Shown piece after piece: positions 5,252-44,091 of a DNA stretch of 64,000 nt (position 1 is the stretch's first letter; the number at the start of each line of letters is the position of its first letter). Below the pieces are notes generated by a model, which saw nothing but the letters and a program-made list of their open reading frames with translations, made no database searches and was not told the origin of the DNA. Source of the DNA: Herbiconiux moechotypicola (GTDB taxonomy: Bacteria; Actinomycetota; Actinomycetes; Actinomycetales; Microbacteriaceae); NCBI RefSeq assembly GCF_024979255.1, contig NZ_JANLCN010000006.1:239931-303930 (forward strand), in the 5' to 3' direction. Made by a program: the position numbers and the translations under genes.

Positions 5252-6769
5252 ATGCGGAGCATGCCCGACACGATCGCGCGCCTCATCGACGACACCCGCT
5301 TCGGCCGCGCGCACCGCCGCGTGTGGCTGCTCTCCTCGCTCGGCATCATGCTCGACGGCTTCGACTTCTTCATCATGGGCGTCGCCATCCCCCTGATCGC
5401 CGCCGAGTGGTCGACCACGCCCCTCGAGACCGGACTCATCAGCTCGGCCGCGATCGTCGGGGCGATCGTGGGCGCCGCGGTGATGGGCCCGCTCTCCGAC
5501 CGCATCGGCCGCAAGCTCGCCTTTCGCATCGACCTCGGCCTCTTCGTGGTGTTCGCGCTCGCCTCGGCGCTCGCGCCCGACGTGTGGTGGCTGATCGTCT
5601 TCCGCTTCCTGCTCGGCATCGGCATCGGTGCCGACTACCCGATCAGCGCGAGCTACGTCTCCGAGATCTCGCCCTCGCGCCTGCGCTCGCGGCTGCTCAT
5701 CGGCGCCTTCAGCTTCCAGGCGGTGGGCCAGCTGCTGGGGGCGCTCGTCGGACTGCTCGTGCTGAGTCTGGATCCGGTTCCCGATGCGTGGCGCTGGATG
5801 CTCGCGGTCGGCGTGGTGCCCGCGATCGTGATCGTCATCCTGCGCCGGGGAGTGCCGGAGAGCCCGCTGTGGCTGGCCTCGACCCGCCGCTACGAGGAGG
5901 CCGCGCTGTCGCTGCAGACCTTCACCGGGCATCCGGTGGAGGTGGCCGAGCTCATCTCGCGCGGCGAGGTGGTCGCCGTGCCGATGCCCGCCCCTGTGGT
6001 GACCGGCGTGGTCAGACCCGCGGATGCGCATCCCGCGATTCCGCGCCTGTCGCTGTTCTCGAGGCGGCTGCGCGGGGCGACGGTGCTCACGAGCGTGCCC
6101 TGGTTCTTCATGGACATCGCCACCTACGGGGTCGGTGTGTTCACGCCGACCATCATCGCCGCCATCGCCCTCACCCCGGCCACGGGCGCCGGATCGAACC
6201 CGCTCTTCATCGCCGACGACATCACCTCGACCGAGGGTGCCGCGGTGCTCGACCTCTTCCTCGTGGCGGGCTTCCTGCTGGCACTGGTGCTCGTGCGCCG
6301 GCTCGGTCTCATCAGGCTGCAGACGATCGGCTTCGTGGTGATGGCCGCCGGGCTCCTCGTGCTCGCTGCGAGCGGAGCCCTCTCCGAAGGCTCGCCCTGG
6401 CAGTTCGCGCTCGTGTTCGCGGGCTTCGCGGCCTTCAACCTGTTCATGAACCTGGGCCCGAACGCCACCACCTTCGCGCTGCCGACGGTCGCCTTCGACA
6501 CTCTCTCGCGCGGCGCGGGTGCCGGGTTCGCCGCGGCCAGCGGCAAGGCGGGGGCGGCGCTCGGCACCTTCCTCTTCCCGCTGCTGCAGGCCGGGCTCGG
6601 CCTCGGCGCGACGCTCACCATCATCGCCGGGGGTTGCCTCGTGGCGGCGACGGTGACGGTCGTGCTCCGCGGTCGCCTGCGTTCATCCGCCGTTCACCCG
6701 ATGGTCTCCGTGCCCGGCGAGACTGCGCGCGAGCCCCGTGGCACGGCGCTCGAGAAGGAGGAGCGATGA
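5252..6769 (+). CDS. MFS transporter (sugar porter/phosphate-symporter like)
   Basis: This 505-residue membrane protein has about 12 hydrophobic segments. Signature motifs are LDGFDFFIMG in TM1, GPLSDRIGRK in the loop 2-3, and GIGIGADYPISASYVSEI in TM4-5. It belongs to the broad group that includes metabolite:H+ and phosphate:H+ symporters; the exact substrate is unclear. The start could be ATG 5252 or ATG 5261, as neither has a clear ribosome site. Its stop codon overlaps the ATG of a small ORF by ATGA, which in turn overlaps ppk2, so transporter and polyphosphate kinase are translationally linked. A phosphate- or polyphosphate-related role is an inference from that linkage. Confidence 0.82.
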   Translation: MRSMPDTIARLIDDTRFGRAHRRVWLLSSLGIMLDGFDFFIMGVAIPLIAAEWSTTPLETGLISSAAIVGAIVGAAVMGPLSDRIGRKLAFRIDLGLFVVFALASALAPDVWWLIVFRFLLGIGIGADYPISASYVSEISPSRLRSRLLIGAFSFQAVGQLLGALVGLLVLSLDPVPDAWRWMLAVGVVPAIVIVILRRGVPESPLWLASTRRYEEAALSLQTFTGHPVEVAELISRGEVVAVPMPAPVVTGVVRPADAHPAIPRLSLFSRRLRGATVLTSVPWFFMDIATYGVGVFTPTIIAAIALTPATGAGSNPLFIADDITSTEGAAVLDLFLVAGFLLALVLVRRLGLIRLQTIGFVVMAAGLLVLAASGALSEGSPWQFALVFAGFAAFNLFMNLGPNATTFALPTVAFDTLSRGAGAGFAAASGKAGAALGTFLFPLLQAGLGLGATLTIIAGGCLVAATVTVVLRGRLRSSAVHPMVSVPGETAREPRGTALEKEER

Positions 6770-6822
6770 GCTACGACCATGTGTCCGCCGTCGGCCTGAA
6801 CGTCATGCAGGAGCAACCATGA
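6766..6822 (+). CDS. Mini-ORF (18 codons), duplicated 5' end of ppk2
   Basis: The ATG overlaps the MFS stop (ATGA at 6766-6769), and the TGA overlaps the ppk2 ATG (6819-6822). The peptide MSYDHVSAVGLNVMQEQP closely resembles the first residues of ppk2, MSYDHTTAVDLNDML: about 40 of 48 bases match at a 53-bp period. The ribosome site for ppk2 (caggag) lies inside it. It is most likely a translational relay left by tandem duplication. Whether the peptide itself does anything is unknown. Confidence 0.55.
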   Translation: MSYDHVSAVGLNVMQEQP

Positions 6823-7754
6823 GCTACGACCACACGACCGCCGTCGACCTGAACGACATGCTCGGCTACGTCGTCGTCGACACCGACGACGACGACCCGG
6901 TGCTGATCGACCGCCACGGCGAGATCGTCGACACCTGGCGCGAGGGTTACCCTTACGACGAACGCCTGGGCCGTGACGAGTACGAGATCACCAAGCGCCT
7001 CCTGCAGATCGAGCTGCTGAAGCTGCAGAACTGGATCAAGGCCGAGGGCCGCCGGCTCGTGATCGTGTTCGAGGGGCGCGACGCCGCGGGCAAGGGCGGC
7101 ACCATCAAGCGCTTCACCGAGCACCTCAACCCGCGCGGTGCCCGGGTGGTGGCGCTCGAGAAGCCCACCGACCGTGAGAGCACCGAGTGGTACTTCCAGC
7201 GTTACGTGACCCACCTGCCGGCGGCGGGGGAGATGGTGCTGTTCGATCGCTCCTGGTACAACCGGTCGGGCGTGGAACGGGTGATGGGCTTCTGCACCGA
7301 TGACCAGTACCAGCGGTTCCTGCTGCAGGCTCCGGCCTTCGAACGGATGCTCGTGCAGGACGGCGTCGACGTGGTGAAGTTCTGGTTCTCGGTCTCCAAG
7401 AGCGAGCAGCTCACCCGCTTCGCCATCCGCCAGGTCGACCCGGTGCGGCAGTGGAAGCTGTCGCCGATGGACATCGCCTCGCTCGACAAGTGGGACTCGT
7501 ACACGGTGGCCAAGGAGGCCATGTTCGCCGCCACCGACACCCCGGAGGCGCCGTGGACCGTGGTGAAGTCCAACGACAAGAAGCGCGCGCGGCTCGAGGC
7601 GATGCGGCACGTGCTGCACCGGTTCCCCTACGCCGAGCGTGACGACGAGGTGGTGGGGCTGCCCGACCCGCTCGTCGTGGGGCCGGCGGAGTCGGTGTAC
7701 GAGCGGGGCGAGAACGCGGCGGCATCCCGTATCGAGGCGGAGAGGCTAGCGTAG
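6819..7754 (+). CDS. ppk2: Polyphosphate kinase 2
   Basis: The protein is about 311 residues. The start is ATG 6819, with caggag five bases upstream; an upstream extension in another frame of the MFS end is rejected. It shows the PPK2 Walker A loop (FEGRDAAGKGGTIKR), HLNPRGARVVAL, the WYFQRYVTHLP segment and the Walker B/lid DRSWYNRSGVERVMGF. Class I PPK2 enzymes transfer phosphate between polyphosphate and nucleoside diphosphates in the cytoplasm, chiefly making GTP or ATP from polyphosphate. It is the distal gene of the MFS-mini-ORF-ppk2 unit. A short gggcg/cgccc hairpin follows the stop at 7756-7769. Confidence 0.93.
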   Translation: MSYDHTTAVDLNDMLGYVVVDTDDDDPVLIDRHGEIVDTWREGYPYDERLGRDEYEITKRLLQIELLKLQNWIKAEGRRLVIVFEGRDAAGKGGTIKRFTEHLNPRGARVVALEKPTDRESTEWYFQRYVTHLPAAGEMVLFDRSWYNRSGVERVMGFCTDDQYQRFLLQAPAFERMLVQDGVDVVKFWFSVSKSEQLTRFAIRQVDPVRQWKLSPMDIASLDKWDSYTVAKEAMFAATDTPEAPWTVVKSNDKKRARLEAMRHVLHRFPYAERDDEVVGLPDPLVVGPAESVYERGENAAASRIEAERLA

Positions 7755-7771
7755 AGGGCGACTTCGCCCCG

Positions 7772-7797
7772 CCTCCTCGAGCGGGACGCCGAGGAGG
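7772..7797 (+). promoter_or_regulatory. Hairpin that would sequester the ribosome site of the next gene
   Basis: cctcctcg at 7772-7779 pairs perfectly with cgaggagg at 7790-7797 across a 10-base loop. The right arm contains the only strong Shine-Dalgarno (gaggagga) before the Pr6Pr gene, and the left arm mimics the anti-Shine-Dalgarno of 16S rRNA. Translation could therefore be occluded unless the hairpin is opened. Confidence 0.5.
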
Positions 7798-7832
7798 AGA
7801 CGATCGTTACCCGCGCGCGCCGTATCGTCGGT

Positions 7833-8471
7833 GTGCTGCGCCTGCTCGTGGCTACCGCGGCCGCGGTGGCGCTGGTGTTCGACTACGACTACGTGCTGGG
7901 GTTCAGCACCTTCTCCACCGAGAACTACTTCAGCTACTTCACCTTCCAGAGCAACCTCCTCAACGTGGTGGTGCTCGGCTCGTCGGGCATCCTCCTGCTC
8001 TCGGGTCACACGGTGGGCCGCATCCTCGTGAGCGTGCGGGCGATGGCCACCTGCTACGTCCTGGTATCCGGGATCGTGTTCGCGCTCATCGTCTCGCAGG
8101 CGGGGAGCCATCACTACCGCATCGAGGTGCCGTGGACGAGTCAGCTGCTGCACTTCTACCTGCCCGTCGTGGTGGTGGCCGACTGGCTGGTGGGCGTGGG
8201 GAGGGTGCCACTGCGCTGGCGGGTCGTGCCTCTCGTGCTCGTGTTCCCCGTGGTCTGGGGCGTCTTCACGCTCATCCGGGGCTCGATCGTGGGATGGTAC
8301 CCCTACTTCTTTCTCGACCCCGCCCAGGTGAGCGGGCCGGGGGAGTTCGCCCTCTACTGCGGAATCGCGCTCGGGCTGTTCGCCTCCATCACGGCTGGAC
8401 TGGTGTGGGCGTCGAGGTGGCGATCAGGGACTCGTCCACGAAGGGTTCGAGCGTCTGCAGCGCGGCGCTGA
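7833..8471 (+). CDS. Pr6Pr-type integral membrane protein
   Basis: A membrane protein of about 212 residues with six predicted hydrophobic segments, FSYFTFQSNLLNVVVL and HFYLPVVVVADWLV among them, resembling the Pr6Pr (FAR-17a/AIG1-like) family of unknown function. The start is uncertain. The strong gaggaggag site at 7791-7799 has no ATG, GTG or TTG at normal spacing. The first in-frame start codon is GTG 7833, about 33 bases away, and a natural-looking N-terminus TRARRIVGVLRLL would require initiation at a rare codon near 7803-7806. The 3' end overlaps the convergent amine oxidase gene by 83 bp. Confidence 0.7.
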   Translation: MLRLLVATAAAVALVFDYDYVLGFSTFSTENYFSYFTFQSNLLNVVVLGSSGILLLSGHTVGRILVSVRAMATCYVLVSGIVFALIVSQAGSHHYRIEVPWTSQLLHFYLPVVVVADWLVGVGRVPLRWRVVPLVLVFPVVWGVFTLIRGSIVGWYPYFFLDPAQVSGPGEFALYCGIALGLFASITAGLVWASRWRSGTRPRRVRASAARR

Positions 8472-9885
8472 CGAACTCCGCGTCGCCCTGGGTCGCGACC
8501 GTGCCCACCGCATCCGCCGCCGTGAGCCCCACGAGCACGGGCTGCCCGGTGGCGGGGAGCAGGTTGACCCACTCGCTCACCACGGAGGTGTCTCCGAGCA
8601 CCGAGAGCACCGTCGCATCGGCCGACCAGAAGGGCGTGTCGAACCGCAGCCAGAGCTGCTCGAGGGTGCCCATGCCGAGCGATTCCAGCGCGCCGGTCGT
8701 CACCTCGGGCAGCGGGGGATCGAACTCGATGGTGCCGGCCTGCAGCACGCCGAGCGGCACCGTCACCACCACGCGGTCGACCGAGAGCGACTCGCCGGTG
8801 CCGAAGCGGAGGCTCACGCCCTCGTCGTCGTAGCCGACGCGCACGACCGTCGCGCCGAGCAGGACGTCGAGGCCGTCGAGCGCGTCCGACACGACGGTGC
8901 CGAGGCCTCCCACCACGAGGCGCTGCTCGGCGGGGTCGATGCCCGGCGCTCCGCGCTCGAGTCCGTAAGCGGCCGAGAGGCGGAAGGCGCCGGCCCCGTA
9001 CGCGGTGGCGACGAAGGTGTCGAGGTAGTGCGTGAGGAGCTCGGCCTGGGTGGGCGCGGTGGGCGCGGTGTCGGATGTCGTCGTCGAGGTCGCGGATGCT
9101 GCGCGCGTGGCGGTCGCCGAGGCCGAGGCGGCACCCGACTCGGCGAGGGCGGCGGCCAGCGAGATGTCGGGCGAGCCGGTGCGCGCCCAGTCGGTGGCCG
9201 CGGTCACGGCGTCGGCCGGAGCATCCGAGCCGGGCACCACCGTGCCCCCCGCGGTGCGGATCTCGCTCGTGGAATCGAGACCGATGCTGTCCACCCCCGA
9301 GCTGCGCAGCGCCGAGAGCGCGTCGAGCCCGACCGTCGCCGCGCCCAGTTCGACCGGGAACGCCCAGCCGTCGGGCTGACGGGTGTCGATCCTTCCGCCG
9401 AGCCGATCGCGGGCTTCGATCACCACCACGTCGAAGCCCGCGTCGGTGAGCGCCCGGGCCGCGGTCGCACCGGCCAGACCCGCCCCCACCACCGCGATGC
9501 GCTCGCCCGGCGCCGCGACGGCCGCCACGCGGTCGGCCGCGCTCTCACCCGACTGTGCGGCACCCCGCAGGGTGCCGGGGAACTCGCTGGAGGTCGCCTC
9601 GCCGGCCAGAAGCACCCGGCCGCCCACCGTCTCCCGCAGCGTCGCCCGGTCGCCGGGGCCGCCTCCCGCCGGGATCATGCTGAACGAGCCCAGCGAGTAC
9701 GGATCCGTCGACCAGGCGCTGCGCACGAACGCCGCCGGTGCGGGCACGCGCCCGGGCACCGTCGTGGGCGTGGGCGTGGGCGTGGGTGCGGGCGGCGTGG
9801 GAACGCACCCCGACAGAGTGCCGAGCGCGGCGAGTGACAGGGCGGAGAGCGCCCCGCTGAGAAAGACGCGTCGCTCGATGTCCAC
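8389..9885 (-). CDS. Lipoprotein flavin amine oxidase with permuted domain order
   Basis: This 498-residue protein has a signal peptide with an arginine pair (ERRVFLSG) and the lipobox LSGC (Cys27), then a PTPTP linker. Residues about 58-120 contain WSTDPYSLGSFSM and LLAGEATSSEFPGTLRGA. In ordinary flavin monoamine oxidases that is the C-terminal FAD-binding block. Only afterwards comes the usual N-terminal Rossmann motif VVGAGLAG (134-139) with EARDRLGGRI. The protein ends just after the substrate-domain segments VTVPLGVLQAGTIEFDPPLP and FWSADATVLS, exactly where the displaced block would normally begin. The order therefore looks circularly permuted. It is probably anchored outside the membrane and oxidises an amine or phenol. 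The central Ala/Thr-rich stretch is low complexity. Confidence 0.82.
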   Translation of the reverse strand: MDIERRVFLSGALSALSLAALGTLSGCVPTPPAPTPTPTPTTVPGRVPAPAAFVRSAWSTDPYSLGSFSMIPAGGGPGDRATLRETVGGRVLLAGEATSSEFPGTLRGAAQSGESAADRVAAVAAPGERIAVVGAGLAGATAARALTDAGFDVVVIEARDRLGGRIDTRQPDGWAFPVELGAATVGLDALSALRSSGVDSIGLDSTSEIRTAGGTVVPGSDAPADAVTAATDWARTGSPDISLAAALAESGAASASATATRAASATSTTTSDTAPTAPTQAELLTHYLDTFVATAYGAGAFRLSAAYGLERGAPGIDPAEQRLVVGGLGTVVSDALDGLDVLLGATVVRVGYDDEGVSLRFGTGESLSVDRVVVTVPLGVLQAGTIEFDPPLPEVTTGALESLGMGTLEQLWLRFDTPFWSADATVLSVLGDTSVVSEWVNLLPATGQPVLVGLTAADAVGTVATQGDAEFVSAALQTLEPFVDESLIATSTPTPVQP

Positions 9886-9943
9886 GTCTCCACGTTAGCG
9901 GGGCTGCCGTGACGTTGCCGGGAAGGGCTGGGATGATGGGCGG

Positions 9944-10390
9944 GTGATCGCGATCGAACTGGCCAGGGCTCTCCGCACCGCGGGGCTGCGCTGGCACCCG
10001 CGCTCGGGCGACGCCTTCGTCGTGGAGACCGCCGACGGGGGAGACGAGGTGTTCACCGTGAGCGAGATGACGGTCGACCTGCACGAGTTCCCCGGCGGCA
10101 CCGTGATCGGCTTCAACGGCACCACCGAGTGGGCGCTCGACTCGGTGGCGTTCGCCGACGCCCTCTGGCTGCCCGCCGAGTCCCAACTGCGCGAGATCCT
10201 CCGCGACGGCTTCCACAGCCTCGTCGTCGAGCGCGCGGCGGGCGAGACCGTCTACCTCGTGACCGCCACGATCCGCGGCGAACGGTGCACCTTCGAGGCG
10301 CAGAGCGCCGAGAACGCCTACGGCGAAGCGGTGCTCGACCTCATCCTGCGCACCATCGTCGACGAGGGAGATGACCGGGGAATAGGCTGA
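9944..10390 (+). CDS. Conserved actinobacterial protein of unknown function
   Basis: This small soluble protein of 148 residues contains LRTAGLRWHPRSGDAFV, FTVSEMTVDLHEFPGG and IGFNGTTEWALDSV. Homologues in actinobacteria are, from memory, often labelled pilus assembly CpaE. However, no P-loop or receiver domain of true CpaE is present, so that name is not supported here. The GTG at 9944 is used; no strong ribosome site is visible. It ends four bases before the aldo/keto reductase and may be cotranscribed with it. Function not known. Confidence 0.7.
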   Translation: MIAIELARALRTAGLRWHPRSGDAFVVETADGGDEVFTVSEMTVDLHEFPGGTVIGFNGTTEWALDSVAFADALWLPAESQLREILRDGFHSLVVERAAGETVYLVTATIRGERCTFEAQSAENAYGEAVLDLILRTIVDEGDDRGIG

Positions 10391-10394
10391 GACG

Positions 10395-11225
10395 ATGACC
10401 GACAGCCCTGTTCCCCTCATCACCCTCAACAACGGCGTCACCATCCCGCAGCTCGGGTTCGGCGTCTTCAAAGTCGATCCCGACAAGACCGGCCGCATCG
10501 TGCGCGACGCCCTCGACGTGGGCTACCGCCACCTCGACACCGCGGCGATCTACCACAACGAAGAGGGTGTCGGCCACGCCATCAAGGAGGCCGGCGTGCC
10601 GCGCGACGAGCTCTTCGTCACCACCAAGCTGTGGAACGACTCGCAGACCGACGCGCTCACGGCCTTCGACAAGTCGCTCGCGCGCCTGCAGCTCGACTAC
10701 GTCGACCTCTACCTCATCCACTGGCCCACCCCCGAGCGCGACACCTACGTCGAGGCGTGGCGGTCGCTCGAGGCCATCCTCGAGTCCGGTCGCGCGAAGG
10801 CGATCGGCGTGTCGAACTTCACCGTCGACCACCTCGAGCGGCTCCTCGCCGAGACCGACGTCGTGCCGGCCGTCAACCAGGTCGAGCTGCACGTCGACTT
10901 CCAGCAGGCGGAGCTGCGCGCCTACGCGGCGGAGCACGGCATCGCCATCGAGGCGTGGGGTCCGCTCGGCCAGGGGCGCATCAACGAGTCGGAGGAGCTC
11001 GCCGCGATCGCGGCGGCGCACGGCAAGACGGTCGCGCAGACGATCCTGCGCTGGCACCTCGACGTGGGCAACATCGTCATCCCGAAGAGCAACAACAAAG
11101 ACCGCATGGCCGAGAACTTCGACCTCTTCGACTTCTCGCTGAGCGCCGCCGAGATCGCCACCATCGCCACGCTCGACCGTGGTGAGGACGGCCGCAACGG
11201 GTCGCACCCGCTCAAGGTCAACTGA
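10395..11225 (+). CDS. Aldo/keto reductase
   Basis: This 276-residue TIM-barrel oxidoreductase carries the full catalytic tetrad: Asp48 and Tyr53 in YRHLDTAAIY, Lys78 in VTTKLWN and His109 in LIHWP. The NADPH-binding end is IVIPKSNNKDRMAEN. It resembles the bacterial 2,5-diketo-D-gluconate reductase/AKR5 group, which reduces aldehydes and ketones, including sugar-derived and toxic carbonyls, in the cytoplasm. It follows the unknown gene by four bases and converges on the DUF1295 gene two bases downstream. Confidence 0.93.
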   Translation: MTDSPVPLITLNNGVTIPQLGFGVFKVDPDKTGRIVRDALDVGYRHLDTAAIYHNEEGVGHAIKEAGVPRDELFVTTKLWNDSQTDALTAFDKSLARLQLDYVDLYLIHWPTPERDTYVEAWRSLEAILESGRAKAIGVSNFTVDHLERLLAETDVVPAVNQVELHVDFQQAELRAYAAEHGIAIEAWGPLGQGRINESEELAAIAAAHGKTVAQTILRWHLDVGNIVIPKSNNKDRMAENFDLFDFSLSAAEIATIATLDRGEDGRNGSHPLKVN

Positions 11226-11227
11226 GC

Positions 11228-12055
11228 TCAGCTCGTCACGACCTCCGCCTTCCGGCGCCGGGGAAACCACGGCACGAGGGCGGAGGTCGTCTTCTTGTAG
11301 TCGGCGTACTCGGGGTACTTCGACAGCGTGATGCTCTCGGTGAACACGGTCGATCCGATGAACAGGGTGGTGAGCAGAACCGCACCCGCCACCGTCCAGC
11401 TCAGCACGGTGCCGGCCGACACCGCGCCGACGAAGAAGAACACCCACCACTGCGCCTGCTCGAAGAAGAAGTTCGGGTGGCGCGCGAACCGGAACAGGCC
11501 CGTGGTGAGGAATCGCGGATGCGGGTCGCGGCCCGCATCCGACTCGGCTCGCTTCCACGCATGGAAGTCCCACTGCTGCTGGTCGGCCACGGTCTCCCCG
11601 ACGAGGAAGGCCAGGAAGAGCAGGAGCAGGACGGCATCGAGCCACCCGAACGGCGTGCTCTGGTTCTGGAACGCCAGGAAGGCCGGCATCGTGATGAGCA
11701 GCAGGATCACGTTCTGGTAGATCGTGATGAAGAAGACGTTGAAGAGCTGGAAGCGGGCGGGCGACATGCGCGCGCGCAGCACCGCCCAGCGGTAGTCCTC
11801 CCCGCCGCGGGCGTAGCCGCCCTTGCGCGAGAAGTTGAAGGTGAGCCGCGCGCCCCAGAGGGTCACCACGACCGCCATGAGGGTGAGCCGTGGATCGTCG
11901 AACCCCGCCGCGCCCGCGAAGATCCAGACGTAGACGACAGGCACCACCGACCAGATGCGGTCGACCCAGGAGTACTCCCGGGTGACGACGGAGAGCACCC
12001 ACACCGCCACGCAGACGGCGGCGAACACCCAGAGACACGCGATCAACGGAGCCAT
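11228..12055 (-). CDS. DUF1295 membrane protein (steroid 5-alpha-reductase-like fold)
   Basis: A membrane protein of 275 residues with about seven hydrophobic segments. The C-terminal signature GLFRFARHPNFFFEQAQWW is the cofactor-binding motif shared by DUF1295, steroid reductase and isoprenylcysteine methyltransferase-like proteins. Those relatives reduce or methylate lipids at the membrane; the substrate of the bacterial DUF1295 group is not established. It is convergent with the aldo/keto reductase and divergent from garA. Confidence 0.85.
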   Translation of the reverse strand: MAPLIACLWVFAAVCVAVWVLSVVTREYSWVDRIWSVVPVVYVWIFAGAAGFDDPRLTLMAVVVTLWGARLTFNFSRKGGYARGGEDYRWAVLRARMSPARFQLFNVFFITIYQNVILLLITMPAFLAFQNQSTPFGWLDAVLLLLFLAFLVGETVADQQQWDFHAWKRAESDAGRDPHPRFLTTGLFRFARHPNFFFEQAQWWVFFFVGAVSAGTVLSWTVAGAVLLTTLFIGSTVFTESITLSKYPEYADYKKTTSALVPWFPRRRKAEVVTS

Positions 12056-12171
12056 GTCGAAAGTGTAGGCGGGTGCGTCGCCCGAGCGCCGGATTGGGGT
12101 GTTTCACGCCGAATTGGGAGTGGGCCTACGGCCGGAATCGACTACGCTGGTCGGAGCAAGGAGGGCAGCTG

Positions 12172-12657
12172 ATGGCGAACGACGCACGCGACGACGATCA
12201 CACGACGATCATCCCCGTCGCCCCCGCGACCGGCGACACGACGCTGTCGCTGACCGGCGAGTTCGCCGCTCAGCTGGCGGCGCTCGAGGCCGGTGTGACG
12301 GGCGAGGAGCTCGAGTCGATCGCGGCCCTCCCGTCCGGCTCCGCACTGCTCATCGTGCGGCGGGGCCCCAACGCCGGTGCCCGGTTCCTCCTCGACACGG
12401 CGGTCTCGACGGTCGGCAGGCACCCCAACGCCGACATCTTCCTCGACGACGTCACGGTCTCCCGCCGTCACGCGGAGTTCGCCCGCCACGGCCACAGCTT
12501 CGTGGTGCGCGACCTCGGCTCGCTCAACGGCACCTATGTGGGTGGCGTCCGAGTCGAGGAGGCCCTCCTCGACGACGGCACCGAGGTGCAGATCGGCAAG
12601 TTCCGTCTCACGTTCTACCCCTCACGCATCGACGTGGCGACTGCCGCGGGCCACTAG
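12172..12657 (+). CDS. garA: GarA/OdhI-type FHA protein, 2-oxoglutarate metabolism switch
   Basis: The protein is 161 residues. ATG 12172 has the strong site aaggaggg. The C-terminal FHA domain (about 60-150) reads GSALLIVRRGPNAGARFLLD, GRHPNADIFLDD, SRRHAEF and GSLNGTYVGG, and follows the mycobacterial and corynebacterial proteins closely. The N-terminus has a Thr-Thr pair (DTTLS, residues 22-26) at the position of the ETT phosphosite. In relatives the unphosphorylated form inhibits 2-oxoglutarate dehydrogenase and adjusts glutamate synthesis; phosphorylation by Ser/Thr kinases relieves this by self-binding of the FHA domain. It overlaps ftsR by one base. Confidence 0.92.
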   Translation: MANDARDDDHTTIIPVAPATGDTTLSLTGEFAAQLAALEAGVTGEELESIAALPSGSALLIVRRGPNAGARFLLDTAVSTVGRHPNADIFLDDVTVSRRHAEFARHGHSFVVRDLGSLNGTYVGGVRVEEALLDDGTEVQIGKFRLTFYPSRIDVATAAGH

Positions 12658-13376: not shown

Positions 13377-13448
13377 TCGCGCACCCGCCCGCATCCGGCG
13401 CCGGCGGGGCAATCACCGCGACACGCCGAGCGTGAACACGCGATGTCG

Positions 13449-13531: not shown

Positions 13532-14080
<549 letters not shown>

Positions 14081-33579: not shown

Positions 33580-34566
33580 ATGACCGACGACCTCACGAAC
33601 TCCGACAGCAGCGCTCCCATCTCGGGCATCCACGCCTCGGTGCTGCTCGAACGCACCCTCGAACTGCTCGCCCCCGCGCTCGGTCGCCCCGGCGCCGTGC
33701 TGGTCGACTGCACCCTCGGCCTCGGCGGCCACTCCGAGGCCTTCCTCGAGGCGTTCCCCGAACTCCACCTCGTGGGCCTCGACCGCGACCCCAACGCCCT
33801 CGAACTGGCCGGCCGTCGCCTCGAGCGTTTCTCCGCCCGCACCGACCTCGTGCACTGCGTCTACGACGAGATCGACGACGCACTCGACGGCCTCGGCATC
33901 GACGAGGTCGACGGCGTGCTCTTCGACCTCGGTGTCTCGTCGATGCAGCTCGACCGGGTCGAGCGTGGGTTCTCGTACTCGCAGGATGCGCCACTCGACA
34001 TGCGCATGGACGACACGGCCGAGCTCACCGCGGCCCAGATCATCGCGAGCTACCCCGAGGCAGAGCTCCGCCGCATCTTCCGCGACTACGGCGAGGAGAA
34101 GCTCGCCGACCGCTACGCCCGATTCATCGTGCAGGCCCGTGACGAGACCCCCATCCTGCGCTCGGGCCAGCTGGTCGACATCCTCCAGACGGCCACTCCG
34201 GCGAAGCTCATGAACGCGGGTCACCCCGCCAAGCGGGTGTTCCAGGCGCTGCGCATCGAGGTGAACGCCGAGCTCTCGGTGCTCGAGAGGGCGCTGCCCA
34301 AGGCCATCGACGCTCTTGCCGTGGGCGGCCGGATCGTGGTGCTGTCGTTCCAGTCGCTCGAAGACCGCATCGTCAAGCGCGAACTGCAGCGCCGCTCGGT
34401 GTCGACAGCGCCGGCGGGCCTTCCGGTCGAGCTGCCCGAGCACCGGCCCGAGCTCAAGCTCCTGGTGCGCGGTGCCGAACTCGCCGGAGACGAAGAACGA
34501 GCCCGTAACCCACGGGCCATCCCCGTACGGATGCGCGCCGCCGAACGACTGAGGAGGGTCGCATGA
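33580..34566 (+). CDS. rsmH: 16S rRNA m4C1402 methyltransferase
   Basis: This 328-residue SAM-dependent enzyme methylates N4 of C1402 in the ribosomal decoding site. Characteristic segments are HASVLLERTLELL, DCTLGLGGHSEAFLE (SAM loop), GLDRDPNAL, LFDLGVSSMQLD, RGFSYSQDAPLDMRMD and VLSFQSLEDRIVK. The ATG is 33580 after aaccaccagcggccaggacc, with no strong ribosome site. Its stop overlaps the ATG of a 21-codon mini-ORF created by duplication of the rsmH/ftsL junction. Confidence 0.96.
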   Translation: MTDDLTNSDSSAPISGIHASVLLERTLELLAPALGRPGAVLVDCTLGLGGHSEAFLEAFPELHLVGLDRDPNALELAGRRLERFSARTDLVHCVYDEIDDALDGLGIDEVDGVLFDLGVSSMQLDRVERGFSYSQDAPLDMRMDDTAELTAAQIIASYPEAELRRIFRDYGEEKLADRYARFIVQARDETPILRSGQLVDILQTATPAKLMNAGHPAKRVFQALRIEVNAELSVLERALPKAIDALAVGGRIVVLSFQSLEDRIVKRELQRRSVSTAPAGLPVELPEHRPELKLLVRGAELAGDEERARNPRAIPVRMRAAERLRRVA

Positions 34567-34628
34567 GCAACCTGGCCACCTCGCGAATGCTTGTGCGCAC
34601 CGCCGAACGACTGAGGAGGGTCGCATGA
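34563..34628 (+). CDS. Mini-ORF (21 codons), hybrid of ftsL start and rsmH end
   Basis: ATGA overlaps exist at both ends: with the rsmH stop at 34563-34566 and with the ftsL ATG at 34625-34628. The peptide begins MSNLATSRML like FtsL (MSNLATAHML) and ends RTAERLRRVA like RsmH (RAAERLRRVA). The underlying repeat is about 48 bp at a 62-bp period (34532-34579 and 34594-34641) with two mismatches. Each copy carries its own gaggaggg ribosome site. It most probably acts as a translational relay to ftsL. Confidence 0.55.
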   Translation: MSNLATSRMLVRTAERLRRVA

Positions 34629-35314
34629 GCAACCTCGCCACCGCCCACATGCTGCGCCCGAGTGGTGCGTTCAGCAGCGCGGCACCCGCCATCGACCCCG
34701 AGATCGACTCCGACCTCGAGCTCGATCTCGCGGGAGTCTCCGCCCCCGACGGAAGCCCCGACTCCGATTCGCGCCGCCGCCGCGCCCCGTGGATCCAGAT
34801 CGCGCCCAGCCGCAGCCAGCGCCGGGCCCGCCCGAAGATCGCCTACGCGATCGTGGTGGTGACCGGCGTGCTCGCCATCGTCATCACCCAGCTGCTTCTG
34901 AGCGTCGGTCTCTCCGACGGCGCCTACGAGATCGCCTCGCTGCAGCAGCAGCAGCGCGAGCTCGACCGCACCAACCAGACCCTCACGGAGCGCTTCGACG
35001 CCCTCTCCTCACCGCAGAACCTCGCGACGAGCGCGGAAACGCTCGGCATGGTGGCCGGTGGCACCCCCGCCTACCTCCGTCTCTCCGACGGAGCAGTGCT
35101 CGGCACACCCTCCCCGGCGGCGGGCTCGGCGGTCTCGGGAGGCCAGCTCATCCCGAACTCCCTGCTCACCCCGGCCGCGGCGACCGCGACCGCCGATGGC
35201 GCGAGTACGGCATCCGCCGACCCCGCCGCGGCCACGCCGAGCGCGCCTACCGTCCCCGCGCAGTCGACCGACGTACCGTGGCAGGGTGCACTGCCCTCGC
35301 CCACCACGCACTGA
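34625..35314 (+). CDS. ftsL: FtsL-like division protein
   Basis: This 229-residue bitopic protein starts at ATG 34625. It has a cytoplasmic N-terminus with acidic and basic stretches, one membrane span (YAIVVVTGVLAIVITQLLL) and a short periplasmic coiled coil (IASLQQQQRELDRTNQTLTE). This is the FtsL pattern that pairs with DivIC and activates FtsW-FtsI. The last 100 residues are Ala/Thr/Pro-rich low complexity, longer than in classic FtsL but usual in Micrococcales. It is assigned by position between rsmH and ftsI and by topology; sequence similarity in this family is low. Confidence 0.85.
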   Translation: MSNLATAHMLRPSGAFSSAAPAIDPEIDSDLELDLAGVSAPDGSPDSDSRRRRAPWIQIAPSRSQRRARPKIAYAIVVVTGVLAIVITQLLLSVGLSDGAYEIASLQQQQRELDRTNQTLTERFDALSSPQNLATSAETLGMVAGGTPAYLRLSDGAVLGTPSPAAGSAVSGGQLIPNSLLTPAAATATADGASTASADPAAATPSAPTVPAQSTDVPWQGALPSPTTH

Positions 35315-35326
35315 CCGGTCGTTCCT

Positions 35327-37111: not shown

Positions 37112-37150
37112 TGACCGACCGAGCATCATTCCAGGACACCAAGGAGACCA

Positions 37151-38737
37151 GTGGCTGATCGGGGTTCGACGGCACTGCGACCCGAGCATCCGATCGAACG
37201 ATCGCTGCCGCACCTGGTGGAGGAGTTCGGGTTCGACACCGAGGGCCCCGCCGTCTCCGACGTGGTCTCGGGCATCACCCTCTCGTCGAAAGACGTGCAG
37301 CCGGGCGACCTCTATGCCGCGCTGAAGGGCCGCCGGTTCCACGGCGCGTCGTTCGCGACGGCGGCGGCGGAGTCGGGCGCGGTGGCGGTGCTCACCGACG
37401 AGGAGGGCGTCGAGCTCGCCCTCGAGTCGGGCCTGCCGGTGCTCATCACCCCTGAGCCGCGGCTCGCCCTCGGCGAGGTGGCCGCGTGGATCTACCGCAC
37501 CCGCGAGGAGCCGCCGACCCTGTTCGGCGTCACCGGCACCAACGGCAAGACCAGCGTGGCCTACCTGCTCGAGGCGATCCTCCGCCAGCTCGGCATCGTG
37601 GCCGGCCTCAGCACCACCGCCGAGCGCCGCATCGGCGACGAGACCATCGTGGCCAAGCTCACCACCCCCGAGGCCACCGAGATCCACGCCATGCTGGCCA
37701 GGATGCGCGAGGCCGACGTGCGCTCCGTGGTGCTCGAGGTCTCGGCGCAGGCCATCACGCAGCACCGGGTCGACGGCATCGTCTTCGACGTGGTGGGCTT
37801 CACCAACCTCACCCACGACCACCTCGACGACTACGAGACCATGGAGGTCTACTTCGAGGCCAAGCGCGAGCTGTTCCAGCCCGATCGCGCGCGCCGCGGC
37901 GTGGTGATCGTCGACGGGGAGTGGGGCACCCGCCTGGCCCAGGAGTCGCGCATCCCGCTCACCACCATCTCGGTCGACCCTGAGGGCGACGCCGAGTGGC
38001 TGCTCACCGTCGACGAGGAGCAGCCCGACCGCACCTTCTTCACCCTCCGCGGCCCCGACCACCGCGAGCTCTCCACCAGTGTGCCCCTGCTCGGCGACTA
38101 CATGGCCGCCAACGCCGCGCTCGCCATCGTGATGCTCGTGGAGTCGGGTTTCGACCTCGACGCGATCGCCCACGCCCTCAACCTCGCCCACGACGACGAC
38201 GGCGAGGAGATCGAGGACGACGACTTCGTGGCGGGCATCGACGTCTACATCCCGGGCCGGGCCGAGAAGGTCTCCGGCGACCGCGGCCCCGTGGTCTACA
38301 TCGACTACGGGCACAGCCCCGACGCCTTCATCTCGACCCTGCGCTCGATCCGGCGCGTCACCGACGGCCGCATCATCATGCTCTTCGGCGCCGACGGCGA
38401 CCGCGACCCCTCCAAGCGCGAGGAGATGGGCGCCATCGCGGCGAGAGGGGCGGATGCGGTGGTCATCACCGACTTCCATCCCCGCTACGAAGACCCGGCC
38501 GCGATCCGCGCGGCCCTCCTGCGCGGAGCGCGCGCCGCGGTGCCCGACCGCGAGATCCTCGAGGTGCCCGACCCCAAGGCGGCCTTCCGCGCCGCTCTCG
38601 GCCTGGCCGGCGAGGGCGACGTGATCCTCTACGCGGGCCCTGGCCACGAGGACTATCACGAGGTCGCGGGGGAGCGCATCCCGTACTCCGCCCGCGACGA
38701 CGCGCGAAGCGCCCTGCACGAACACGGATGGCTCTGA
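37151..38737 (+). CDS. murE: UDP-MurNAc-dipeptide ligase adding the third residue
   Basis: The protein is 528 residues. GTG 37151 follows aaggag. ATP loop [14 protein letters not shown], then NLTHDHLDDYETMEVYFEAK, then the ligase C-domain with GHSPDAF and GPGHEDY. MurE adds the diamino acid at position 3 of the stem peptide. The specificity loop, DNPR in DAP enzymes, here reads D441-F-H-P-R445-Y-E-D. Asn is replaced by His and the preceding residue is Phe, while the Arg is kept. Microbacteriaceae walls use Lys, ornithine, diaminobutyrate or homoserine rather than DAP, so altered specificity is plausible but unproven. Confidence 0.93.
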   Translation: MADRGSTALRPEHPIERSLPHLVEEFGFDTEGPAVSDVVSGITLSSKDVQPGDLYAALKGRRFHGASFATAAAESGAVAVLTDEEGVELALESGLPVLITPEPRLALGEVAAWIYRTREEPPTLFGVTGTNGKTSVAYLLEAILRQLGIVAGLSTTAERRIGDETIVAKLTTPEATEIHAMLARMREADVRSVVLEVSAQAITQHRVDGIVFDVVGFTNLTHDHLDDYETMEVYFEAKRELFQPDRARRGVVIVDGEWGTRLAQESRIPLTTISVDPEGDAEWLLTVDEEQPDRTFFTLRGPDHRELSTSVPLLGDYMAANAALAIVMLVESGFDLDAIAHALNLAHDDDGEEIEDDDFVAGIDVYIPGRAEKVSGDRGPVVYIDYGHSPDAFISTLRSIRRVTDGRIIMLFGADGDRDPSKREEMGAIAARGADAVVITDFHPRYEDPAAIRAALLRGARAAVPDREILEVPDPKAAFRAALGLAGEGDVILYAGPGHEDYHEVAGERIPYSARDDARSALHEHGWL

Positions 38738-38741
38738 CGAC

Positions 38742-40184
38742 ATGCTCGACCTCACTCTCGCCGAGATCGCCGAGGCCCTCCAGGGCGAACTCGTACTCAC
38801 CGACGCGGCCGTGGCCGCCGGATTCTCGCCCGACACGATCGTGAACGGCACCGTCGACACCGACTCGCGCCTCATCGGCGTCGGTGACGTGTTCGTGGCC
38901 AAGCGCGGCGAGTTCGACGACGGTCACCGCTTCGTGGAGCCCGCGGTCGCCTCCGGTGCCGTGCTCGTCGTGGTGGAGCACCCCTTCGACGTCGCCGTGG
39001 CCCAGGTGGTCGTGCCCGACTCGGTGCTCGCGCTCGGCTTCTTCGCCACCGAGGTGGTGCGGCGGGTACGCGCGCTCGGCGAGCTGAAGATCGTGGGCAT
39101 CACCGGTTCGAACGGCAAGACGACCACGAAGAACCTGCTGCGCGCCATCCTCGAGCGGCAGGGCGAGACGGTCGCCCCGCGCGACTCGTTCAACAACGAG
39201 GTGGGCGCGCCGCTCACCATGCTCAAGCTCACCGCCAGCAGTCGCTACCTCGTGGCCGAGATGGGCGCGAGCGGCAAGGGCGAGATCACGCGGCTGATCA
39301 GGATGGCCAAGCCCGACATCGGCGTGGTGCTCAAGGTCGGTCTCGCCCACGCGGGCGAGTTCGGCGGCATCGAGACCACGCTCGCCACGAAGACCGAGAT
39401 GGTGCAAGACCTCGAGCCCGGCGACGTGGCCGTGCTCAACCTCGACGACACGCGCGTGGCCGGCATGGCCGAGAAGACCGCCGCGCGGGTGGTGTGGTTC
39501 GGCCTCTCCGACGCCGCGGCGGTCCGCGCCACCGACGTCGACGTCACGGCGCGCGGCACCTCGTTCGTGCTGCATCTGCCCGACGGCTCGTCGCGGCCGG
39601 TGCGCTTCGCGGTGCTCGGCCAGCACCACGTGATGAACGCGCTGGCCGCCGCGGCCGCCGCCTTCGAGCTCGGCGTCGGCATCGACGACATCGTCGAGGC
39701 TCTCGAGACCGTGGTGCGCGCCGAGCGCTGGCGCATGGAGGTGATGGGCGGCGCCGACGGCGTGACCGTCATCAACGACGCCTACAACGCCAGCCCCGAC
39801 TCCATGGCCGCCGCCCTGCAGACGGTCGCCATCATCGCGGCGCCCGGCCAGCGCACCACCGCCGTGCTCGGCGAGATGAGCGAGCTCGGGCCGTACGCCA
39901 CCGAGGAGCACGACCGCATCGGCCGCCTCGTGGTGCGCTACAACATCCACCGCCTGGTGGTGGTGGGGGAGGGCGCGCGCGCCATCCACCTCGCCGCCGA
40001 GCACGAGGGCTCCTGGGGCGGGGAGGCGGTGTTCGTCGAGACGGCCGACGAGGCGTTCGATCTCATCGCCGCCGACACCCTGCCCGGCGAGCTCATCCTG
40101 GTGAAGTCGTCGAACTCGGCCGGCCTGCGCTTCCTGGGCGACCGCATCGCCCAGGCGAATTCCACGACGGAGGTGCTCCCGTGA
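38742..40184 (+). CDS. murF: UDP-MurNAc-tripeptide D-Ala-D-Ala ligase
   Basis: This 480-residue Mur ligase completes the pentapeptide by adding D-Ala-D-Ala. Motifs: [15 protein letters not shown] (N-domain), [15 protein letters not shown] (ATP loop), [12 protein letters not shown], and [17 protein letters not shown], the MurF signature. It starts four bases after murE and overlaps mraY by GTGA, in a tightly coupled run of cytoplasmic precursor genes. Confidence 0.96.
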
Positions 40185-41275
40185 TCACCCTGCTCGCCTC
40201 GGCCTCGCTCTCGCTGGCGTTCTCGCTCTTCCTCACCCCGGTCTTCATCCGCCTGTTCAAGCGGTTCGCCTGGGGGCAGTTCATCAACGTCGACACCCCG
40301 GATGCTCACCACGTCAAGCGGGGCACGCCCACCATGGGCGGCATCGTCATCATCCTGGCCGTGCTCTTCGGCTACTTCGTGTCGGCGCTGCTGACGCAGG
40401 AGCTGCCGTCGATCTCGGGCCTGCTCGTGCTGTTTCTCATGACGGGGCTCGGCGTGGTGGGCTTCATCGATGACTTCCTCAAGGTGCACAAGGAGCGCAG
40501 CCTCGGTCTCACCCCGTGGGCGAAGATCACCGGTCAGGTGATCGTCGGCGTGGTGTTCGCGCTGCTGGCGATCCAGTTCCCGAACGCGCAGGGCGAGACG
40601 CCGGCCTCGACGCAGATCTCGTTCATCCGCGACCTGCCCTTCGACTTCCTCTCCTGGGGCGTGGTGCTCGGCACCATCGCCTTCGTCATCTGGATCTGCT
40701 TCATGGTGATGGCCACCTCGAACGGGGTGAACCTCACCGACGGGCTCGACGGGCTGGCGCCCGGTTCGAGCATCCTGGCCATCGGCTCGTTCGTCATCAT
40801 CGGCTTCTGGCAGTTCAACCAGTCGTGCGCCAACGGCTCGCTCGACCTCGACGTGGCCGACAAGTGCTACGACGTGCGCGACCCGCTCGACCTCGCCGTG
40901 GTCGCGGCCACGGTGGTGGGAGCGCTCATCGGCTTCCTGTGGTGGAACACCAACCCCGCCAAGATCTTCCTCGGCGACACCGGCTCGCTCGCCCTCGGCG
41001 GCGCCCTCGCCGCGCTCGCGATCCTCGCCCGCACCGAGCTGCTGCTCATCCTCATCGGCGGCATCTTCGTGATCGTGGCCGGCCAGGTGGCGGTGCAGCT
41101 GACCTACTTCAAGCTCACCAAGGGCAAACGCATCTGGCGGGCCAGCCCGCTGCACCACCACTTCGAGATGAAGGGCTGGGCCGAGGTCACCATCGTCGTG
41201 CGGTTCTGGATCATCGCGGGACTGTTCGTGGCCGGGGCCGTGGGGTCGTTCTACCTCGAGTGGCTCTCGCGGTGA
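40181..41275 (+). CDS. mraY: Phospho-MurNAc-pentapeptide transferase
   Basis: This 364-residue polytopic membrane enzyme starts at GTG 40181, inside the murF stop. It transfers phospho-MurNAc-pentapeptide to undecaprenyl phosphate, forming lipid I. Diagnostic loops are [29 protein letters not shown] (catalytic Asp pair), [32 protein letters not shown] and the C-terminal [12 protein letters not shown]. About ten membrane spans are predicted. It overlaps murD by GTGA. Confidence 0.97.
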
Positions 41276-42822
41276 GTGAGATGGGCACGATCGGCAGCGA
41301 GGCCTCCAGGCTCGACGGTCTCACCAGCTGGAACGCCGACTGGTCGGGTCTGCGCGTGGCGGTGCTCGGCCTCGGCATGACCGGGTTCTCGGTGGCCGAC
41401 ACGCTCACCGAGCTGCGTGCGGAGGTGCTCGTCGTGGCCGCTGCGGCTTCGAAGGAGTACGCCGACCTCGTGCCGGTCATCGGCGCGCGCCTGGTGCTGG
41501 CCCCCTCCGGTTCGGTGCCCGGCGAGCTGACCGCGTTCGCCCCCGAACTCGTGGTCGCCTCACCCGGTTACCACCCCGACGACGCGCTGCTGGTCTGGGC
41601 CGCCGAGGCGGGCATCCCGGTGTGGGGCGACGTGGAGCTGGCCTGGCGGCTGCGTGACAAGGTGGTGCACCCCGAGACAGGCCTGCCCGCCGACTGGATC
41701 GCCGTGACCGGAACGAACGGCAAGACCACGACCGTGCAGCTCACCGCGCACATGCTGCGTGCCGCGGGGCACCGGGTGGCGCCGTGCGGCAACATCGGCG
41801 TGCCCGTGCTCGACGCGATCCGCGACCCCGAGGGCTTCGACGCGCTCGTGGTGGAGCTCTCCAGCTACCAGTTGCATTCGACCTCGAGCATGTCGCCGTT
41901 CTCGAGCGTCGTGCTCAACGTGGCCGATGACCACCTCGACTGGCACGGCTCGTTCGAGGCCTACGCCGCCGCGAAGGCCCGGGTGTACACGAACACGCGA
42001 CACGCCTGCGTCTACAACATCGGCGACCCCCTCACCATGCGCATGGTCGAGGAGGCCGACGTGGTGGAGGGTGCCCGCGCCATCGGCTTCGGGCTCGGCG
42101 TGCCGGGGCCGAGCGACCTGGGGGTAGTGGAGGGCATCCTCGTCGACCGCGCGTTCCACGACGACCGGCACCACTCCGCGCTCGAGATCGCGACCGTCGA
42201 CGAGCTCGCCGCGCGCGGGCTCGGCGCACCGCACACGGTCGCCGACGTGCTCGCCGCCGCGGCGCTCGCGCGCAGCTACGGTGCCTCGATCGAGGCCGTC
42301 CGTGCCGCGCTGGCCGGGTTCGAGCTCGACCACCACCGCATCGAGCTCGTGGCGGAGGCCGCCGGCGTGGCCTGGGTCGACGACTCCAAGGCCACCAACC
42401 CGCACGCCGCGGCGGCGTCGCTGGCCTCCTATCCGTCGATCGTGTGGGTGGTCGGCGGTCTGCTCAAAGGCGTCGACATCGACCCTCTCGTGCGCGACGC
42501 GGTGGCTGGCGACACCTCGCGGGTGCGCGCCGCCGTCGTGATCGGGGTCGACCGCGCCGAGGTGCTCGACTCCATCCGGCGACACGCGCCCGGGCTGCCG
42601 CTGTTCGAGGTGCTGCACGATGAGACTGAAGACGTGATGGCCGCGGCGGTCGCTCTGGCGGCCGGGGTGGCCGCGCCCGGAGACACCGTGCTGCTGGCAC
42701 CGGCGGCGGCGTCGATGGACCAGTTCCGAGACTACGGCGACCGCGGCGACCGCTTCGCGGCCGCGGTGCGCAGCCACCTGGGAGGCATTGACGGTGACGA
42801 CCCCCTCCCGCACGCTCCCTAG
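41272..42822 (+). CDS. murD: UDP-MurNAc-L-Ala:D-Glu ligase
   Basis: This 516-residue enzyme starts at GTG 41272 overlapping mraY, or at ATG 41281 three codons on. It adds D-glutamate to the UDP-MurNAc-monopeptide. It shows [15 protein letters not shown] (N-domain), [14 protein letters not shown] (ATP loop), [28 protein letters not shown] and [11 protein letters not shown], the latter specific to MurD. In type-B walls typical of this family position 1 is Gly, so its acceptor may be the glycine form; that is inference. Its 3' end overlaps ftsW by about 29 bp. Confidence 0.95.
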
Positions 42823-44011
42823 GTTCGGCGCGGGCTCCACGGCAACCTCCGGCCCCCGCTCGGCCCGCATCTCGCTCGGTCACGTCTTCACGGCCGAGTC
42901 GGGCAACTACTTCCTGCTGCTCGGCACCACCCTGTTCCTGGTGCTGCTCGGGCTCGTCATGGTGCTCTCTTCCTCGTCGATCGACTCCTACCTGGGCCGC
43001 CAGGGCTTCTTCGGCCTGTTCTGGAAGCAGGGGATGTTCGCCCTCATCGGCATCCCGCTCATGCTCGTCATCTCGAGGCTGCCCATCCGGTTCTTCAAGC
43101 GCTGGGCCTGGGTGGCCATCTTCGTGGCCGTGGGCGTGCAGCTGCTCGTGTTCACCCCGCTCGGCATCGAGGTGGGCGGCAACCTCAACTGGATCGGCAT
43201 CGGCAGCTTCAACTTCCAGCCCTCCGAGTTGGTGAAGCTCGCCCTGGTCATCTGGATGGGCTCGATCCTCGCCAAGAAGGAGCAGCTGCTCGGCCGTTTC
43301 GGCCACGTCGTCATCCCGGTGCTTCCGGTGGCCGGCGGCGCGATCGCGCTGGTGCTGCTCGGCGGCGACCTCGGCACGGTGATGATCATGGCGGGCCTGG
43401 TGTTCGGCGCGCTGTTCTACGCAGGCATCAAGCTCAGGATGCTCGTGCTGCCGCTGCTGGCAGGCGCGGTCATCGCGGTGGCGGTGGCGTTCTCGAGCGA
43501 GAGCCGCACCGGGCGCATCCTGAACTTCTTCAACGGCGGCGGAAGCGATTACGAGGGCTCCGACTGGCAGGCTCAGCACGGCGAGTGGGCGCTGGCGGGC
43601 GGCGGCATCTTCGGGGTGGGGCTCGGCAACTCCCGGGCCAAGTGGTCGTGGCTGCCGGCCGCCGACAACGACTACATCTTCGCCATCATCGGTGAGGAGC
43701 TCGGTCTCGTGGGCGCGATCGTGGTGCTGGCGCTGTTCGTGGCGCTGGCGATCGCGTTCGTGCGCATCATCCGCTCGACCGACGACATGTTCTCGAAGGT
43801 CGCGACCGGGGCCGTGATGGTGTGGCTGATCGGGCAGGCGTTCGTGAACATCGCCGTGGTGGTGGGGCTGCTGCCCGTGCTCGGGGTGCCGCTGCCGCTC
43901 ATCTCGTCGGGGGGATCCGCACTGCTCACCACGCTGGCCGCCATCGGCATAGTCCTCGCGATCGCGCGGGAGAACTCGGCGACGCCCAAGGCCTCGGGGG
44001 TGCGATCGTGA
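42794..44011 (+). CDS. ftsW: SEDS septal glycosyltransferase
   Basis: This protein is about 405 residues with roughly ten membrane spans. GTG 42794 has ggagg at proper distance inside the end of murD; a TTG at 42788 is too close. SEDS motifs: NWIGIGSFNFQPSELVKLAL, GGDLGTVMIMAGL, GVGLGNSRAKWSWLPAADND, FAIIGEELGLVGA and PLPLISSGGSALLTTL. It polymerises lipid II at the septum with FtsI. The C-terminal sequence IVLAIARENS is repeated in the following mini-ORF. Confidence 0.95.
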   Translation: MTTPSRTLPRFGAGSTATSGPRSARISLGHVFTAESGNYFLLLGTTLFLVLLGLVMVLSSSSIDSYLGRQGFFGLFWKQGMFALIGIPLMLVISRLPIRFFKRWAWVAIFVAVGVQLLVFTPLGIEVGGNLNWIGIGSFNFQPSELVKLALVIWMGSILAKKEQLLGRFGHVVIPVLPVAGGAIALVLLGGDLGTVMIMAGLVFGALFYAGIKLRMLVLPLLAGAVIAVAVAFSSESRTGRILNFFNGGGSDYEGSDWQAQHGEWALAGGGIFGVGLGNSRAKWSWLPAADNDYIFAIIGEELGLVGAIVVLALFVALAIAFVRIIRSTDDMFSKVATGAVMVWLIGQAFVNIAVVVGLLPVLGVPLPLISSGGSALLTTLAAIGIVLAIARENSATPKASGVRS

Positions 44012-44091
44012 CGGTGCAGATCGTCCTCGCGATCGCGCGGGAGAACTCGGGGCGGCCGACGGGTGCGCTGCGCCGGGAGTCGCGCGCGTGA
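44008..44091 (+). CDS. Mini-ORF (27 codons), hybrid of murG start and ftsW end
   Basis: GTGA overlaps join it to the ftsW stop (44008-44011) and the murG start (44088-44091). The peptide starts Met-Thr like MurG, then reads IVLAIARENS exactly as the FtsW C-terminus, then a diverged Arg-rich tail. A 28-base identical run occurs at 43952-43979 and 44023-44050. Without it, murG would be 76 bp downstream of ftsW with no ribosome access from the upstream ribosome, so a relay role is suggested. Confidence 0.55.
   Translation: MTVQIVLAIARENSGRPTGALRRESRA

Follow-up and report, generated by a model that had tools for sequence, protein, structure and literature searches.

Local duplications beside gene boundaries of Herbiconiux moechotypicola leave open mini-ORFs that likely hand ribosomes on

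In a 64,000-nucleotide stretch of the Herbiconiux moechotypicola genome (the window), three same-strand gene boundaries, MFS/ppk2, rsmH/ftsL and ftsW/murG (sites 1, 2 and 3), hold a short open reading frame (mini-ORF) that overlaps both neighbouring genes by ATGA or GTGA. With moderate confidence we read these mini-ORFs as products of local duplication that are open because the step from one start to the next is 2 modulo 3, and that likely hand ribosomes on from the upstream to the downstream gene, the duplications being probably tolerated, not favoured. The window comprises positions 239931-303930 of contig C41 (NZ_JANLCN010000006.1) in a draft genome of 4.28 Mb and 51 contigs, and coordinates given without a contig name are those of the window.

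Duplicated gene boundaries

The features of the three sites are listed below.

5252..6769, plus strand: MFS/sugar transporter gene, upstream partner of site 1 (Pfam Sugar_tr 3.6e-49, MFS_1 9.5e-29)
6756..6808, plus strand: copy 1 of the 53-nt unit of site 1, 83% identical to copy 2
6766..6822, plus strand: relay mini-ORF 1, MSYDHVSAVGLNVMQEQP, 18 aa, ATGA overlap with both neighbours
6809..6861, plus strand: copy 2 of the 53-nt unit of site 1, by alignment to copy 1
6819..7754, plus strand: ppk2, downstream partner of site 1 (Pfam PPK2 3.4e-103)
33580..34566, plus strand: rsmH (mraW), upstream partner of site 2 (Pfam Methyltransf_5 5.6e-106)
34532..34591, plus strand: copy 1 of the 62-nt period unit of site 2 (60 nt alike), 90% identity
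34563..34628, plus strand: relay mini-ORF 2, MSNLATSRMLVRTAERLRRVA, 21 aa, ATGA overlap with both neighbours
34594..34653, plus strand: copy 2 of site 2, by alignment to copy 1
34625..35314, plus strand: ftsL, downstream partner of site 2 (by position and by homologues behind rsmH in relatives; no Pfam match)
42788..44011, plus strand: ftsW, upstream partner of site 3 (TTG start at 42788; 42794 by the gene caller; Pfam FTSW_RODA_SPOVE 1e-81)
43949..43979, plus strand: copy 1 of the 31-nt ftsW-tail repeat of site 3, 97% identity, lag 71
44008..44091, plus strand: relay mini-ORF 3, VTVQIVLAIARENSGRPTGALRRESRA, 27 aa, GTGA overlap with both neighbours
44020..44050, plus strand: copy 2 of the 31-nt repeat, within mini-ORF 3, by alignment to copy 1
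44088..45179, plus strand: murG, downstream partner of site 3 (Pfam Glyco_transf_28 1.5e-30, Glyco_tran_28_C 5.1e-28)

A first-pass annotation of the window had proposed these mini-ORFs. All three (6766-6822, 34563-34628 and 44008-44091) are present, each sharing an ATGA or GTGA with the upstream stop and another with the downstream start; both their origin by duplication and their relay geometry were supported. Site 1 and site 2 each show a clean tandem duplication, with 83% identity over 53 nt and a start-to-start step of 53 at site 1, and 90% identity over 60 nt at site 2, where lag and start-to-start step are both 62. At either site the copied piece takes in the stop/start boundary with its NTGA overlap. 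The self-matches score 30.5 (site 1) and 45 (site 2); the best self-match in one dinucleotide-preserving shuffle of C41 scored 16.

The common structure proposed for the three sites is exact at these two and approximate at site 3, where the repeat consists of 31 nt of the ftsW tail ('IVLAIARENS', 97% identity). The proposed periods of 53, 62 and 80 are correct as start-to-start steps; the repeat at site 3 has a lag of 71, so that the 80-nt mini-ORF step includes a 9-nt difference. Sequences around the two GTGA overlaps of site 3 are unlike each other (local alignment p = 0.2), and no convincing source was found for the 40-nt stretch between the repeats, the best match there spanning 33 nt at E 0.08. 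The mini-ORFs at the two dcw sites had also been said to start like the downstream gene and end like the upstream one. This fails at site 3, where mini-ORF 3 has only 'VT' in common with the MurG start and its likeness to FtsW lies in the middle, not at the end.

Genes were called with a codon-bias caller, and same-strand neighbour pairs were then scanned for duplications of period at least 40 without regard to period class (step modulo 3). The own-genome sample covered 1.36 Mb and 824 same-strand pairs (304 kb of C41 and another 1.05 Mb), and the sample of relatives 2.37 Mb and 1,346 pairs, with some overlapping records counted twice; six short contigs (4.2 kb in all) and locus L035 (3.6 kb) were omitted from the counts. 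The scan of the 824 pairs returned sites 1 and 2 and two further sites, 4 and 5, all on C41. Site 4 (C41:164398/164453), between genes for a zinc-type alcohol dehydrogenase and a carbon-nitrogen hydrolase, has a period of 56; its copies are 98% identical over 48 nt, with an 8-nt filler. On the minus strand of C41, site 5 (206370/206258) consists of two chained mini-ORFs with steps of 53 and 62, between genes that, going by their sequence, we take to encode DppB/DppC-like transporter permeases. Both lie outside the window and likewise copy the NTGA overlap. No junction duplication of period at least 40 was found in the other 1.05 Mb of the genome, nor in any of the relatives' 1,346 pairs. Site 3 falls outside the main junction-scan rule and was detected as a gene-edge duplication. 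When 108 gapped junctions carrying NTGA on either side were compared in an independent anchored test, sites 1, 2, 4 and 5 stood out at p < 0.01, and not site 3; the test gave one weak additional match (C34:103543, class 0, p 0.0025).

The direct overlap that preceded these duplications can be seen in relatives. In all 15 genus relatives the rsmH stop is an NTGA, as is that of ftsW, ftsW and murG overlap directly, and MurG aligns from its called start. FtsL, whose identity to the others is at most 76%, which leaves no second strain of this species among the 16 genus genomes, aligns from residue 1 at offset -1 in 10 of the 15; in the other five the alignment begins at residue 54 or 56, and there the ftsL start presumably lies at the overlap. 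None of the 15 has a mini-ORF at rsmH/ftsL or ftsW/murG. Given the direct overlap in relatives, the duplications at these two boundaries are private to this genome among those searched. The upstream stop is likewise NTGA in 11/11 relatives' loci for site 4 and 13/13 for site 5. An MFS gene stood upstream of ppk2 in 0/14 relatives' loci, within flanks of about 1.5 kb, less at contig ends.

At sites 2 and 3 the two copies have bases in common that find no counterpart in relatives (alignments read by eye), and are therefore sister copies made in this lineage. Homeologous recombination between alleles of two strains was ruled out for these sites on the same ground.

One relative, G013, has a mini-ORF chain of its own at the site-4 junction (L271, 2532-2570; VSVRL / VSEGAAR, steps 14 and 20), with stop and start overlapping at every link. 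This independent small relay was spotted by eye, and its steps fall short of the smallest period that the main scan admitted.

Several duplications outside these sites were also recorded. Non-genic duplications of lag 50-75 numbered eight in the 304 kb of C41 (53, 56, 62, 62, 71, 72, 73 and 73) and two in the other 1.05 Mb (56 and 69; another cut adds 54 and 64); they look clustered on C41, and the choice of the window explains part of this. At 50033-50150 a 45-nt end piece of gene 49388-50089 recurs at lag 73 in the next spacer (84%) with no relay, and is a gene-tail duplication of another period class. A 43-nt piece at 46872-46986 is repeated at lag 72 close to where gene 46891-47964 starts; a longer frame of this gene opens at 46759, overlapping the preceding gene's stop, and the repeat would duplicate part of the N-terminus in frame. 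Convergent genes flank an array at 62035-62195 that holds about 11.6 copies of a 14-bp unit (GGCGCCGAGAAGTG).

Reading frame and period class

The open frames of the mini-ORFs had been taken as a sign of selection, and this claim had to be given up. Random units of 40 to 90 nt were duplicated in silico across 186 direct NTGA junctions. Class 2 duplications produced a relay in 98.9% of cases, class 0 duplications an N-terminal extension of the downstream protein in 96.4%, and in 83% of class 1 cases the reading ran past the second start in a different frame. A class 2 hybrid frame is open at birth because a unit spanning an NTGA overlap fuses two frames that are both native. Random substitutions matching the differences counted at each site (the first link of site 5 not included) keep the frame open with a probability of 0.75 to 0.98. 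Open at birth and open under drift, the frames are therefore no evidence of selection; together with the shuffle expectation given below, the simulation rules out that use of them.

The geometry by itself is not rare. In counts made without CTG starts, an open mini-ORF chain overlapping both genes was present at 6/90 gapped junctions on C41, 17/282 in the other own-genome sample and 6/220 in four relatives. Five of the six chains on C41 are the duplication sites, and the same geometry without duplication occurs at 24/587 other junctions, so that the sites are unusual by duplication, not by geometry. An open, double-overlapping mini-ORF alone is thus no evidence of function.

All six steps at the five sites belong to class 2 (53, 62, 80, 56, 53 and 62), and the proposed rule of 2 modulo 3 thereby held at two sites that came from a class-blind scan (steps 56, 53 and 62). 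Duplications elsewhere are distributed otherwise. Within the genes of this genome 39/39 were of class 0; intergenic duplications numbered 7, 2 and 3 in classes 0, 1 and 2, and gene-edge duplications, sites 3 and 5 excluded, 3, 3 and 1. The relatives' 20 non-genic duplications of period at least 40 numbered 10, 7 and 3; judged by gene coordinates only, with the letters not read, none lies across a same-strand stop/start boundary. Three of them adjoin same-strand neighbours (G011 lag 45, G015 lag 48 and L062 lag 103; classes 0, 0 and 1).

A second line of evidence came from gap lengths. Among de-duplicated gaps of 15 to 150 nt (486 of 989 pairs), those with NTGA at both ends favoured class 2 over class 1 by 32:10 (p 0.0009), and the three other junction kinds had no class skew (71:62, 55:53 and 14:17). 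With four of the duplication sites removed, the ratio was 28:10 (p 0.005; Fisher test against the other cells p 0.014). Twenty-four of the 32 class 2 gaps are open, where 23.3 are expected from shuffles. The excess is a hint only, because it is one of four cells inspected and is not confined to open frames.

In a test of the 13-nt context, 8 matches were found at 329 own junctions against 1.35 expected, none of 40 shuffles giving more than 4, and 3 at 418 junctions of relatives against 1.4 expected. Looser scans gave 13 short-period matches, all of period at most 36, of which 11 are class 0 and two class 2 (L055, and G012 lag 32):

Relatives' loci: L042 lag 30, L055 lag 26, L091 lag 33
Own genome: C41:68694 lag 21, C41:182204 lag 30, C34:200922 lag 30
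Relatives' genomes: G011 lag 36; G015 lag 24; G003 lags 36, 24 and 36; G012 lags 32 and 30

As read by eye, the start of the downstream gene is not copied in these, and they were not counted as junction duplications. The AT-rich L055 repeat does include a copy of the stop's ATGA, and one of the G003 repeats sits within an open relay mini-ORF of step 116. Taken together, the evidence for a filter on the frame of boundary duplications is modest.

Weighing the explanations

We infer the following course of events. A stretch of 31-60 nt next to a stop/start boundary would be duplicated locally, creating a mini-ORF of 18 to 27 codons, and a step of 2 modulo 3 would leave its hybrid frame open by arithmetic. 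Ribosomes ending the upstream gene likely reinitiate on the mini-ORF and then again on the downstream gene. At a coupled boundary a class 2 duplication would be tolerated because the relay likely keeps translation coupled. A class 0 duplication would put a new N-terminus on the downstream protein and a class 1 duplication would mostly send ribosomes past the start in the wrong frame; both are presumably purged more often.

Several observations weigh against this account. One contig holds all five sites. The events are few: three of the six steps formed the hypothesis, and although the three new ones are all class 2, they come from only two sites (chance 1/27 by steps, 1/9 by sites). The boundary itself was not copied at site 3, only the ftsW tail. 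Own matches in the 13-nt context test were 2, 2 and 4 for classes 0, 1 and 2, one of the class 1 matches being both steps of site 5 added together. Nonsynonymous and synonymous codons stand at 4:1, 2:2 and 2:0 in the compared parts of sites 1 and 2 (8 and 3 in sum), and the mini-ORF peptides, to judge from these changes, look unconstrained. Finally, the Shine-Dalgarno motif is also duplicated at sites 1 and 2; the downstream gene might therefore not need the relay, and coupling may matter little. Sites 3 to 5 have 4-nt Shine-Dalgarno motifs only.

We allow a real, if minor, chance that the duplications, frequent on this contig, are mutational scars, harmless at gene ends, with relays of no effect and a 2-modulo-3 pattern that is partly chance. 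Relay geometry arises unaided at such periods, drift alone would leave the frames open as calculated above, and the peptides appear unconstrained. Duplications of similar size stand nearby without a relay (lag 73 at the end of gene 49388-50089, lag 72 near 46872 and lag 73 at C41:53706). What this explanation does not account for is that class 2 was found in 6/6 boundary steps, against 7, 2 and 3 for classes 0, 1 and 2 among the intergenic duplications of the same genome, and that NTGA-bounded gaps keep their preference for class 2 over class 1 (28:10) after four of the duplication sites are removed.

That the relays are positively selected devices, raising or tuning downstream expression by regulation or coupling, we consider unlikely. 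The class 2 excess in de-duplicated NTGA-bounded gaps (32:10) and the separate chain of G013 at the site-4 junction would fit such a role. The same excess, however, is not confined to open frames (24/32 open, 23.3 expected), rsmH/ftsL and ftsW/murG do without a mini-ORF in 15/15 relatives, and no constraint on the peptides was seen.

Insertion of a dispersed mobile repeat, of the type of the mycobacterial interspersed repetitive units (MIRUs), is highly improbable. Geometry, lengths modulo 3 and gene-wise direction are as in MIRUs, and eight weak matches to the site-3 query lie elsewhere at E <= 0.1, several of them over the query's last 45 nt. Against this, the units are copies of local genes, and the five sites match one another over at most 18 nt (E 0.06). 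Whole-genome DNA searches with the units of sites 1-3, in which 40 of 65, 40 of 42 and 40 of 135 first-look candidates were scored, gave nothing better elsewhere than E 1e-3 over 28 nt. Sites 4 and 5 were searched against the 1.36 Mb own-genome sample. An assembly artefact or miscalled gene starts, conceivable in a draft of 51 contigs with starts from a codon-bias caller, can practically be dismissed, since a false join would not explain why 2 to 19% of the positions differ between copies, and the called starts match relatives' protein alignments (murG 15/15, ftsL 10/15).

The tolerated local duplication with a relay that likely keeps translation coupled thus remains our preferred explanation. 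If the filter is real, gene boundaries would tolerate short duplications mainly in one reading class, and selection on translational coupling would be readable from DNA alone.

Relation to known systems

Each step of the chains is a stop/start overlap of the kind at which termination-reinitiation occurs (ATGA or GTGA), seen in its plain form at ftsW/murG and rsmH/ftsL of relatives; the difference is that here a mini-ORF is inserted between the two genes. In the bicistronic design leaders of synthetic biology a short leader ORF similarly delivers ribosomes to the main gene, but these are engineered expression cassettes and not products of duplication within an operon.

The closest parallel is with MIRUs, whose copy number varies between strains. 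According to a 2025 review, MIRUs appear to be mobile elements that enter at start codons; the ORF carried in with them is coupled at -4 nt, which likely softens the effect of the insertion (PMC12548453). The space between senX3 and regX3 holds units of 77 and 53 bp (PMC4213456), and one paper reports the MIRUs of this locus from M. leprae and the M. tuberculosis complex only. Both lengths are also 2 modulo 3, and several units may follow one another between a pair of genes, like the two-mini-ORF chain of site 5. The -4 nt stop/start overlap of a short ORF with the adjacent gene was found at all five sites, as a matter of geometry only, and each site lies between co-directional genes and in the same direction. 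Since MIRUs share the coupled mini-ORF design, the first-pass view that the class is undescribed was not supported; an earlier description of coupling ORFs arising from intergenic tandem duplication was not found in the open-licence literature.

MIRUs are described as repetitive and apparently mobile, whereas the sites described here are copies of local gene ends. No convincing second copy was found in the whole genome for sites 1-3, among the candidates scored, or in the 1.36 Mb for sites 4 and 5. If real, a frame filter would give coupled ORFs of MIRU-like design a simple way to arise outside mycobacteria. Tentatively, one might go further and suppose that MIRU-like relay ORFs are born afresh by local duplication in this lineage, that the filter keeps those passing ribosomes on, and that MIRUs themselves possibly originated in this manner. 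With no dispersal seen, a relay mini-ORF of this kind would work like a MIRU and is not one; by analogy, we regard it as a MIRU-like design made by local duplication.

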